Assembly (NCBI GenBank): GCA_934525325.1 | Contig: CAKSZE010000012.1 | Span: 1 to 38,317, forward strand | Length of the DNA: 38,317 nucleotides | Direction of reading: 5' to 3' | Origin: an uncultured Faecalibacterium sp. | Lineage (GTDB): Bacteria > Bacillota > Clostridia > Oscillospirales > Ruminococcaceae | In this document: piece after piece, positions 13,112 to 36,743 of the stretch | How positions within the stretch are numbered: the first letter of the stretch is position 1 | Layout: the number at the start of each line of letters is the position of its first letter | Position numbers and translations under genes: made by a program | The notes under the pieces: generated by a model | What the model saw: the letters and a program-made list of their open reading frames with translations, nothing else | Databases searched by the model: none | What the model was told of the DNA's origin: nothing

Positions 13112-13309
13112 AGAATGATGCACCGTGCCTGCGGCACGGCATGATGTTCCCTGCGGGAAATGATGTTGCCCTGCGGGCAAATGATGTGTGCCTTGCGGCA
13201 CAATTGCCGCCGCAGGCGGCTGCATCATTTCCGGCGCAGCCGGAACATCATTGCGAAGCACATCATACTGCGCGCAGCACAGTACATCATTCCCCCAAAG
13301 GGGGACACC
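13112..13309. repeat. ATGATG/CATCAT hairpin array, copy without a gene
   Basis: Nine to ten short perfect hairpins are strung together, each with a different stem: GTGCC-tgc-GGCAC, TTCCC-tgc-GGGAA, TTGCC-ctgc-GGGCAA, TGTGCC-ttgc-GGCACA, GCCGCC-gca-GGCGGC, TCCGG-cgcag-CCGGA, ACTG..CAGT, CCCCC-aaa-GGGGG. In the left half they are separated by ATGATG; from the central GCCGCC hairpin onward the separator becomes CATCAT(T). The array is therefore a large inverted repeat in its spacers, while each hairpin is unique. It starts 2 bp after the pyrophosphatase stop and its last hairpin supplies the ribosome site of the acylphosphatase gene. Confidence 0.85.
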
Positions 13310-26800: not shown

Positions 26801-27137
26801 GCAGCAGGCGTATCTGTCCCGCGTCAGCCGCGATTCCTCCGGCGGCGAGAATCAGGCACCCTTCTATGTGGCCATCTGCGCCAGCCTTCTGCAAATCTAC
26901 CAGAAGAGCGAAAACAGCATCCGTCTGGTGCTGCTGGACGAAGCTTTCAGCAAGATGACCAGCGACCGTATCCGCCCCATGATGGAGCTGTTCCGCCGCC
27001 TGCAATTGCAGGTGCTGCTCATCTCCACCGTGGAAAAGAGCACCGCCATCCAGCCCTACTGCGATATCACCTACTCCATCGTCCGCCACGGCGATGCCAA
27101 TGCCATCGCGCCCTTTGTCCGCCTTGCGGCGGAATGA
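23838..27137 (+). CDS. jetC: Wadjet JetC-like SMC/MukB-type ATPase
   Basis: 1099 residues with GGAGGGTG before the ATG. The Walker A motif is GVNAVGKT (30-37); the ABC signature is SGGEN (1001-1005); the Walker B motif is LVLLDEAF (D1034, E1035); STVEKSTAI follows. Between about 280 and 480 and between 590 and 830 lie long Ala/Glu/Gln-rich coiled coils; the intervening section corresponds to the hinge. This is the layout of an SMC-like loop-extruding motor. In Wadjet the ATPase recognises and reels in small circular DNA. The gene appears intact and is the last of the operon. Its codon choice is strongly GC-biased, like the chromosome genes around it, so there is no sign of very recent transfer. 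Confidence 0.9.
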   Translation: MIELKRLKLINWHNFENTTFDCARLTYMIGVNAVGKTTILDAIRYCLTTNRNFNALGNKKSGRTLQGSVHAKQRGENAYRRPGHTVAYIGAEFWDSVKHTSFVIAVRVESEGPMQELHPGDQTWYISEDGITLEQLPFIDPRTGAPSAKEDFKPAEGRLSYTRSPSEARDRICRALGIGRAASPLGKKFNEVFQMGTSMDEIPNFREFLYQYILPQPELDLEALQGDRLELENLHAVLAEAQTRADALDEIVRFGREAAEKQTEALVNRGAALLARAAADAGEKAVWQERVEAGRRQQETLRTRYAEAKTAEAEARRAYLTAHSAAGASGEGRALDALSEELAHRQTALDAAARKADTAEKAAEKTGNLLAVLRRSGFAAGQKLADLTPDTLPALTDWLTAQEKPLEEAYFAARQHTAALQRQQTEKRAELDAVSGGKWVYPHGDAATRVRDAVNAELKSRGMEPDARIFCELLNVEDESWQDCVEACLGDRRFDILVPPAHYAAAKSAFVALKDKVGPISLLDTPGLRKANRRADTAPADSLAAQVTSENPLAAQYADTILRRIVCCDTPDTLENYPDSATRDLLRHHPFRLERLRTPQRYIGLEARRARAGALAGEMNALAEEVRAAAQAEQNLKAAYSQYQTLLRGTTLEELAALWDARAALTAARAAVEEQAAKLAECRENPLLQQLYKEEEVREAAWEAARTAVEQTGGDLRVCEKQITSCETEQQKAVDTAEKSAQAAESFFAAHPLVEPLSRSRQQALTGPDKSPRAAAQAAEKAQAKLDDALTVYLNSTLEPAQKAYNQRYVCDYPLGLAGLEQYRAQHESLVRIDLERYAARLEQAQRDCKDRFRKDILFRMKDDIFNARRQFRELNKVMEQLTYGEEVYRFELEPSRDPQLAAFYQVIVDKGNQQMTEGDSLDNLAATADPAYERQVDELMEKIMADVDENTRARQEGRTAAGATLSDYVDYRTYLDYDIKVTNQVTGQQAYLSRVSRDSSGGENQAPFYVAICASLLQIYQKSENSIRLVLLDEAFSKMTSDRIRPMMELFRRLQLQVLLISTVEKSTAIQPYCDITYSIVRHGDANAIAPFVRLAAE

Positions 27138-27245
27138 GGTGCGCATTGTATGCGCAATGATGTCTGCCTGCGGCAGATGATGTGCTATGCAATGATGTTC
27201 CGGCTGTGCCGGAAATGATATGCCTTGCGGGGCGTGCAGAAAGGA
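27138..27245. repeat. Hairpin array, left arm (ATGATG orientation)
   Basis: Starts directly at the jetC stop. Units: TGCGCAT-tgt-ATGCGCA, ATGATG, TCTGCC-tgc-GGCAGA, TGATG, TGC-tat-GCA, ATGATG, TTCCGG-ctgtg-CCGGAA, ATGATA. Same spacer and same style as the left half of 13112-13309, with different stems. Confidence 0.8.
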
Positions 27246-27251
27246 AAACCA

Positions 27252-27608
27252 ATGCGGGAAGATAAACTGGCAGACCGTTCTATGGAGTTTGCAGTGCAGA
27301 TCATTGAACTGACAAAGACGCTGCGCGCAAGAAAAGAATTCATTATGGCAAACCAAATTGGACGTTCCGGTACATCCATCGGCGCAAATATCCGTGAGGC
27401 GCATTATGCGCAAAGCCGGGACGATTTTGTTTCCAAACTTGAAATTGCTCTGAAAGAAGCCAACGAAACTGATTATTGGCTGGAACTTTTGTTTCGTACC
27501 GGTTATTTGCCTGACCAGCAGTTCCGACAGCTTCGGGCGCAGTGCGCAGAACTGCGTGTGCTGCTGATTGCATCCTGCAGAACGGCAAAACAGAAGCCGT
27601 GCGGATGA
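27252..27608 (+). CDS. Four-helix-bundle protein (23S rRNA intervening-sequence protein family)
   Basis: 118 residues from the ATG at 27252, preceded by AAAGGA. The signature motifs are present: QIGRSGTSIGANIREA (about 37-52) and SKLEIALKEANETDYWLELL (about 61-80). Members form pentameric four-helix bundles and are basic; they occur inside 23S rRNA intervening sequences, and a relative (Avd) accompanies diversity-generating retroelements. A nucleic-acid-binding role is inferred. Here the gene sits between two arms of a hairpin array with opposite spacer orientation, not in rRNA and not near a reverse transcriptase. Base composition is lower in G+C than jetC, suggesting separate ancestry. No own promoter is clear. 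Confidence 0.88.
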   Translation: MREDKLADRSMEFAVQIIELTKTLRARKEFIMANQIGRSGTSIGANIREAHYAQSRDDFVSKLEIALKEANETDYWLELLFRTGYLPDQQFRQLRAQCAELRVLLIASCRTAKQKPCG

Positions 27609-27735
27609 CCGTACTTAATGTGCGTCAGCACACATCATTTTGCGCGTAGCGCAAACCTCATTGCGTAGCAACCTCATTTCTGCGCAGCAGAACATCATGC
27701 AACTGCAATTTTGCCTTGCGGCAGAGTGATGCAAA
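27609..27735. repeat. Hairpin array, right arm (CATCAT orientation)
   Basis: Units: TGTGCG-tca-GCACA, CATCATT, TTGCGC-gta-GCGCAA, CCTCATT, GC-gta-GC, CCTCATT, TCTGC-gca-GCAGA, CATCAT, then TGCC-ttg-CGGCA, GTGATG. The spacer is reversed relative to the left arm, so arm-gene-arm forms one element of about 600 bp between jetC and the MATE promoter. Confidence 0.78.
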
Positions 27736-27771: not shown

Positions 27772-27811
27772 GTTTTTCGCTCATCGGAGGGCTGTTTCAA
27801 CGTAATTGAAG

Positions 27812-27917
27812 GGCCGGATAAGATGTCACCGTTCGTGCTTCCCGGAGGCTGTGGGCACCGTAGTGCCGCAGCAGAAAAGGGAACGCACCGGAGCGGTGGT
27901 TCTTATCCGGCCTTTTT
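27812..27917 (+). promoter_or_regulatory. Candidate leader RNA ending in a terminator (riboswitch-like) before the MATE gene
   Basis: One long rod: 12-bp closing stem (27812-27823 with 27901-27912), then CACCG/CGGTG (27827-27831 with 27894-27898), GTGC/GCAC, TTCCC/GGGAA (27839-27843 with 27879-27883), an asymmetric internal loop (GGAGG opposite CAGAAAA), and a tip CTG..GGCAC/GTGCC..CAG with a 4-nt loop. The closing stem runs into five T, so it doubles as a terminator inside the leader. I do not recognise a known riboswitch class. Confidence 0.6.
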
Positions 27918-27947
27918 GTATGTGCAGAGTTCAAAAAAGGAGGAGTT

Positions 27948-36668: not shown

Positions 36669-36743
36669 GTGCGACCGGGAGGATTCGAACCTCTGGCCTT
36701 CCGGGTCGGAGCCGAACGCTCTATCCAGCTGAGCTACGATCGC
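36667..36743 (-). tRNA. tRNA-Arg, anticodon CCG
   Basis: 77 nt including an encoded 3' CCA. Acceptor GCGATCG/CGGTCGC (one G-T pair), position 8-9 TA, D arm GCTC...GAGC, anticodon stem TTCGG/CCGGA with loop CTCCGAC, variable AGGCC, and T loop TTCGAAT. The T stem has an A-C mismatch at its outer pair. It reads CGG codons. A promoter at 36775-36803 and a terminator directly after make it a single-gene unit. Confidence 0.95.

Follow-up and report, generated by a model that had tools for sequence, protein, structure and literature searches.

The S23/IVP domain, borne by proteins of the 23S rRNA intervening-sequence (IVP) family, has been described as functionally uncharacterized, and the occurrence of IVP inside rRNA insertions has already been published (excerpted text of PMC11270868). 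REPIN/RAYT systems, in the extract of PMC3116915 available, consist of inverted, hairpin-forming miniature repeats in intergenic regions, with many gene-less copies, a rare gene beside its cognate repeats, and paired types of protein and repeat. Direct repeats of the 7-nt sequence TAACTGA adjoin start and stop codons in Beggiatoaceae, cyanobacteria and Bacteroidetes and are distributed similarly to XisH/XisI, and a protein binding them has been asked for (MacGregor 2015, PMC4679880); the accessible text of that paper uses none of the words 23S, intervening or helix bundle. The locus considered here lies in a contig of an uncultured Faecalibacterium sp. (CAKSZE010000012.1 of assembly GCA_934525325.1, positions 1 to 38,317, forward strand), the whole stretch of 38,317 nt being referred to as the window. 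It comprises an S23/IVP gene framed by two inverted arms, each a series of short boxes separated by hairpins.

This locus is likely to be the gene-bearing form of a repeated, probably undescribed kind of mobile element, of which the S23/IVP protein is the predicted end-recognition factor, with one ring subunit per box. Confidence in this reading rests on the distribution of AGTKATATT arrays, the co-variation of box sequence with protein clade, a peak at five boxes, the dispersal of copies within one genome (G050; genomes and loci carry G and L numbers) and the association of arms with IVP genes (111 of 134 loci). In searches of the open PubMed Central literature, which leaves out most subscription papers, no link between PF05635 and such arms was found.

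Box arms and the S23/IVP protein

Homologous loci were picked by protein similarity and not by arms: 50 from relatives, the best 80 of 256 from a genome collection and 12 from plasmids and phages (28 such records held a match, 13 were retrieved and the flanks of 12 were read). Locus L051 was left out of the counts because it coincides with L001 of genome G029. The flank set kept 128 of 136 gene matches, five loci holding more than one, and the arm test kept 134 of 141 loci, those with less than 150 nt of flank on one side being dropped. By this automatic test box arms were present in 111 of the 134 IVP loci, compared with 106 of the 1265 control windows that these loci supplied. Ten of the 23 automatic misses were inspected, of which eight display arm-like repeats by eye and two (L026, L045) do not clearly do so.

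By eye, the arms fall into two architectures. In Clostridia, hairpins separate the boxes; in Bacteroidota, Planctomycetes, Chloroflexi, cyanobacteria and others, the arms are tandem heptads, often five of the form ART-NNNN. L031 and L035 are intermediates, displaying heptads with one hairpin in a single gap. Heptad-run length peaks at exactly five, in 24 upstream and 31 downstream flanks of the 141 loci compared with 0.05 or fewer in shuffles, and does so at period 7 only. Upstream boxes are in sense in 21 frames and reversed in 2, a ratio uninformative on gene direction because an inverted frame reads alike from both sides. In L006 (G053) the right-arm block is tandemly repeated downstream of the gene, giving 12 CTTCAT boxes, and several clostridial loci, as judged by eye, have an outer hairpin with TTTGTCTACnGACAAA at its core and an IVP stop codon that overlaps the ATG of the following gene as ATGA.

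Box sequence varies with protein clade. Using a Mantel test on 83 of the 128 loci, the rest having no arm 6-mer, protein identity was correlated with shared arm 6-mers (r 0.39 for the 83 loci, 0.58 for the 49 clostridial ones; 0 of 5000 permutations as high). Within genomes holding multiple IVP genes, sharing of box 6-mers with the nearest protein from a foreign genome exceeds that with own-genome paralogues at 15 loci, falls short of it at 3 and equals it at 11. AGTKATATT arrays were found in 10 of 61 relatives, and all ten belong to the 18 relatives that carry an IVP gene. Among 31 genomes of the genus, the IVP gene is present in G029 only, and the exact ATGATG pattern gives 13 array sites in G029, five in G001 and one in G030; the remaining exact matches, judged by their letters, look like coding sequence, and decayed arrays like the one in G010 escape the pattern.

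The gene of the window (27252..27608, plus strand, ATG to TGA) encodes 118 aa and is assigned to S23/IVP on its profiles and predicted four-helix-bundle fold. It lies between protein genes, its neighbours being an SbcC-like gene and a MATE gene. The left arm (27133..27220, plus strand) has five boxes, AATGAGG, AATGATG, GATGATG, AATGATG and AATGATA (ATGAGG starting at 27134, ATGATG at 27157, 27177 and 27192, ATGATA at 27215), and four hairpins at 27140-27156, 27163-27177, 27183-27191 and 27198-27214; its first box contains the TGA that ends the SbcC-like gene (27135-27137). The right arm (27614..27698) carries its boxes on the minus strand, CATCAT at 27633, CCTCAT at 27656 and 27672, and CATCAT at 27693, with a degenerate inner box TTAAT near 27615 and hairpins at 27619-27632, 27639-27655, 27661-27671 and 27678-27692. 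Once degenerate boxes are counted, five boxes and four hairpins can be made out in each arm of the window; the strict box count is four for three of the window's arms. Chains of at least three ATGATG/CATCAT boxes number three in the window versus none in each of 40 dinucleotide shuffles. The arms match no Rfam RNA family at gathering score in a scan of the window, and the locus is not an insertion inside an rRNA gene, the sole Rfam match of the window at that score being a tRNA at 36670-36743.

The protein scores 105.5 bits against PF05635 (curated cut-off 33.8) and 113.6 bits against TIGR02436 (curated cut-off 24). Its predicted structure has four helices (mean predicted local distance difference test score 94.9) and shares the four-helix-bundle fold of 2rld and 2gsc, two solved relatives with five chains each; from these chain numbers and a reference title, the relatives appear to be pentamers, and the window protein may be one too. 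Judging from codon differences with the G029 copy (31 synonymous and 5 nonsynonymous; nonsynonymous rate dN 0.029, synonymous rate dS 0.604), the gene is under purifying selection. Ten residues, including E49, D58, K62, K68, E69 and E72, are invariant across 49 aligned relatives. The closest protein among the matches listed, at 97 percent, is from Faecalibacterium prausnitzii CNCM I 4541 (locus L051).

A first-pass annotation of the window had described a four-helix-bundle gene of the 23S IVP family between opposite arms of one array, and the two profiles and the predicted fold confirm this. It had also taken the arms for exact halves of a gene-less array elsewhere in the window. Inverted box arms are indeed present; the right arm, with two CATCAT and two CCTCAT boxes, is not a perfect half. 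Its check on homologues came out in favour of the pairing, loci normally without arms not being what was found, and the pairing, which it had framed for Oscillospiraceae, extends to many other phyla.

Other genes near IVP elements were noted. Armed IVP genes lie within gene sets of a defence type: cas2 and cas1 flank one on an Anabaena plasmid (L301), hsdS and hsdR one in Monoglobus (L306), and helicase and N-6 methylase genes one in Chlorohelix (L305). In 8 of the 10 loci tested for them, tRNA genes are near the element (L002, L008, L017, L025, L029, L042, L043, L050), and the element often follows a terminator. Ahead of the MATE transporter gene of the window is a conserved leader (27806-27935), ending in a terminator-like hairpin GGCCGGATAAG...CTTATCCGGCC; it is common to G001, G023 and G027, and its only Rfam matches are two weak ones that fall well short of the gathering score.

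Filled, empty and inverted sites

The SbcC-like site was read in 16 loci. Arms and gene like those of the window are present in G029, arms without the gene in G010 and a remnant in G031, and the site is empty in G001, G023 and G027 despite about 97 percent flank identity to the window. In the window, the 3' end of the SbcC-like gene, including its stop codon at 27135-27137, reads GCGGCGGAATGA (27126..27137, plus strand), and a near-copy, GCGGCAGAGTGA, identical at 10 of 12 positions, is at 27718..27729 (plus strand), preceding the TGCAAAAC of the empty site. This flank sequence is in one copy only at the empty site of G001, G023 and G027.

A gene-less pair of arms is located in the window at 13113-13291, between DHH pyrophosphatase and acylphosphatase genes. 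Its left arm (13113..13205, plus strand) has four ATGATG boxes (13115-13181), four hairpins and a central AATT (13202-13205); its right arm (13202..13290, minus strand) has CATCAT at 13223, 13246, 13261 and 13285. An outer hairpin at the right junction, TCCCCCAAAGGGGGA (13291..13305), has a 3' half matching the GGGA of the empty site. Folded as DNA, this array gives z-scores of -6.1 (plus strand) and -7.3 (minus strand). Compared with G029, the array of the window is 97.9 percent identical over 193 nt, and the neighbouring gene 87 percent. Among the 30 loci read at this DHH site, it is filled like the window in G001 and G029 and without array in 28, G023 being the clearest empty form. In three loci (L150, L151 and L157, from G027, G004 and G030) the gap between the DHH and acylphosphatase genes holds a different intergenic repeat, CCCC...TTTTGTCGC...GAGGTGGCATTGCGGAGCAATGACGGAGAGGG.

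Nine flanks of G029 were searched and seven of the sites read in other genomes, those of L210 and L218 being left out. At L209 no array is present in G001, G004, G010, G023, G027, G030 or G031. The L216 site is filled in G001, partial in G030 and without array in G010, G016 and G026, and G023 and G027 each have one isolated box there. The L217 site is filled in G001 and split or decayed in G030, with none in G004, G010, G023, G026, G027 and G031. At L211 the element is inverted in G001 and absent from G010, G023, G027 and G031; L214 and L215 have none in ten genomes each, and L219 none in six. The empty L211 site of G010 and G031 (L294, L295) has the sequence GGAAATGCATTATTC, which looks like a join of the first ATG to the last CAT and is possibly a deletion scar. 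Between G029 and G001, two of the elements have opposite orientations with respect to their flanks, and one (L216, L221) is colinear. By eye, L213, L217 and L219 of G029 have terminator-like hairpins between their two arms, and arms start at or just past a stop codon.

Copies are also dispersed within genomes. The unrelated G029 sites L210 and L211 have only a 231-bp element in common. In G050, which has 25 pattern matches, some overlapping, L312 and L313 align over 235 columns, both limits of which coincide with the arm edges or lie no more than 7 nt from them, and ends or inner motifs of the gene-bearing L010 and L025 recur in the gene-less copies L312-L324. This genome thus resembles those with miniature inverted-repeat transposable elements in holding gene-less and gene-bearing copies with common ends. 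Gene-bearing copies have themselves multiplied within genomes (L002 with L019; L042 with L043 and L050). The earlier suggestion of a mobile element with gene-bearing and gene-less forms is supported by the empty, filled, inverted and gene-deleted orthologous sites, by the dispersed arm-bounded copies and by array genomes being mostly gene-bearing; empty forms, for which it had proposed a search, were found at both the SbcC-like site (G001, G023, G027) and the DHH site (G023).

Movement, strand and rival explanations

In the proposed mechanism, a pentameric S23/IVP ring would bind the five boxes of one arm as a single strand, one subunit per box. Hairpins would replace the 4-nt linkers, so that boxes would keep one spacing only when single-stranded. 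The protein would recognise and pair the ends of the element, and gene-less copies may be moved or kept by it in trans. Since neither a reverse transcriptase nor a Y1 transposase tracks the element, cutting and joining are proposed to be the work of host enzymes of replication or repair; for movement, the bound strand would be single-stranded DNA at replication forks. Action of the protein on the arms is indirectly supported by the co-variation and by the five boxes and five chains. As a more tentative possibility, S23/IVP could be the whole protein side of a class of mobile elements spanning many phyla, in which a pentameric ring would count five ART boxes on one strand and pair the ends, host replication would copy the element to RTGA-like sites, and 23S rRNA intervening sequences and the orphan heptamers of cyanobacteria and Beggiatoa would be relics.

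Several observations weigh against reading the locus as a mobile element recognised by its S23/IVP protein. Simple linkage of gene and arms could produce the co-variation equally well, and the genomes compared are non-independent points. In the profile searches that gave PF05635 and TIGR02436 the window protein matches no known nuclease family. No constant target duplication is seen, there being about 12 nt at the SbcC-like site and none by eye in the G050 copies. Arrays occur without an IVP gene in G001 (five sites) and G030 (one); in only 6 of the 10 AGTKATATT-array genomes is an IVP gene itself flanked by that box, and G053 has an IVP gene with AGTKATATT-box arms yet no array by pattern. 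Both arms are upstream of the gene in many clostridial loci of the hairpin class (L002, L007, L019), unlike the window copy, in which the gene is between the arms. With a strict ATG core, hairpin arms have five boxes in 11 of 27 cases, four in 10, three in 5 and six in 1. Runs of five consecutive ARTGA heptads were found in 8 of 249 Bacillota genomes, 6 of the 8 holding PF05635 (G254 below cut-off) compared with 49 of 249 overall, and the reversed-pattern control was found in 12 of the 249, 7 of these being gene-bearing; since the reversed pattern describes AGTRANN heptads it is no clean null, and this survey is given little weight.

The strand and nucleic acid concerned bear on the main rival, a post-transcriptional regulon, which is considered unlikely. 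In the trp RNA-binding attenuation protein (TRAP), a ring takes one short repeat per subunit; a TRAP-like IVP ring on RNA would bind five boxes in mRNA leaders and 3' ends, autoregulate and set the fate of arm-bearing messages, dispersal being secondary. DNA folding gives no consistent strand preference, and RNA of the box strand is more stable in two of three box classes, favouring RNA and weighing against the DNA mechanism; kinship with Avd, the accessory protein of diversity-generating retroelements, also fits RNA. The same boxes inverted at both ends, on the other hand, suit DNA, as a single transcript has sense boxes at one end only, and arms come and go together with the segment between them and flip in place. 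A unit-by-unit test of the arms as a co-evolving stem was negative at low power (mirrored linkers 0.803 versus permuted 0.783, p 0.12, 13 loci), which counts weakly against the regulon. Triloops on the box strand are mostly TNC, or GNA on the other strand (34 of 47, 18 of 24 and 18 of 29 in the three classes, from the 65 of 76, 39 of 43 and 46 of 74 linkers with a foldable hairpin). GNA loops are stable in DNA; choice of strand from loop type was dropped as proof, the DNA energies having no consistent preference.

Other sources of movement fare worse. REPIN-like elements moved by a Y1/RAYT transposase, the IVP gene being a passenger, would share the logic of inverted hairpin-forming ends, a single-copy helper and dispersed gene-less copies (PMC3116915, as extracted), and Y1 (PF01797) matches are in slight excess in gene-bearing genomes (9 of 18 versus 14 of 43 gene-less). 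Dependence on Y1/RAYT was rejected: Y1 matches are lacking in 7 of the 10 AGTKATATT-array genomes, G029 has a fragment of 34 positions only, the framed gene is PF05635, and the clade of the supposed passenger predicts the box sequence. This explanation is thus very unlikely. The fold of IVP and its distant kinship with Avd speak for an accessory role in which it helps a reverse transcriptase copy the arms; the first-pass annotation had pointed to known relatives that bind RNA or assist retroelements. The distribution of RVT_1 is at odds with it, the domain being present in 5 of 18 gene-bearing versus 18 of 43 gene-less relatives (p 0.39) and absent from G029, which carries the orthologous locus, and from G032, G040, G052, G053, G055, G056, G058 and G061; reverse-transcriptase dependence was rejected on these grounds, and an accessory role of this kind is highly improbable. 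Ordinary terminator hairpins or drifting microsatellites, by chance beside small genes, could explain the single long tandem arrays of G081 and G159, both without the gene, as well as the reversed-pattern heptads, and some arms do enclose terminators. They are inconsistent with the peak at exactly five and period 7 only, and with the inverted symmetry, clade co-variation and arm association, and are barely credible as an explanation.

Comparison with known systems

If correct, the reading of the locus as a mobile element with S23/IVP-recognised ends would add a class of element without a recognisable recombinase, and a functionally uncharacterized domain gains a testable function from the rule that ties the number of boxes to protein clade and to the dispersal of the element. 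S23/IVP also offers a partner for orphan heptamer repeats. The reverse complement of the TAACTGA repeat, AGTTATC, fits the ART-NNNN class of IVP arms, and a link between these heptamers and IVP may be drawn from such sequence likeness; TAACTGA itself was not found repeated in the 12 plasmid and phage IVP loci. On a plasmid of Nostoc sp. ATCC 53789 (L299) an IVP gene adjoins xisH and xisI.

The 23S rRNA intervening sequences have the same PF05635/TIGR02436 protein family as the window gene, which differs in its place between protein genes and in its box-array arms. Diversity-generating retroelements differ in that no reverse transcriptase tracks the window type of element. The likeness to TRAP is one of working only, in that one repeat per ring subunit is predicted for IVP, and TRAP differs in fold and number. 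Closest in organisation is REPIN/RAYT, in which, as here, the inverted hairpin-forming repeats are dispersed and gene-less; the protein here is a four-helix-bundle S23/IVP protein and not a Y1 transposase, and each end is an array of about five spaced boxes and not one repetitive extragenic palindrome.
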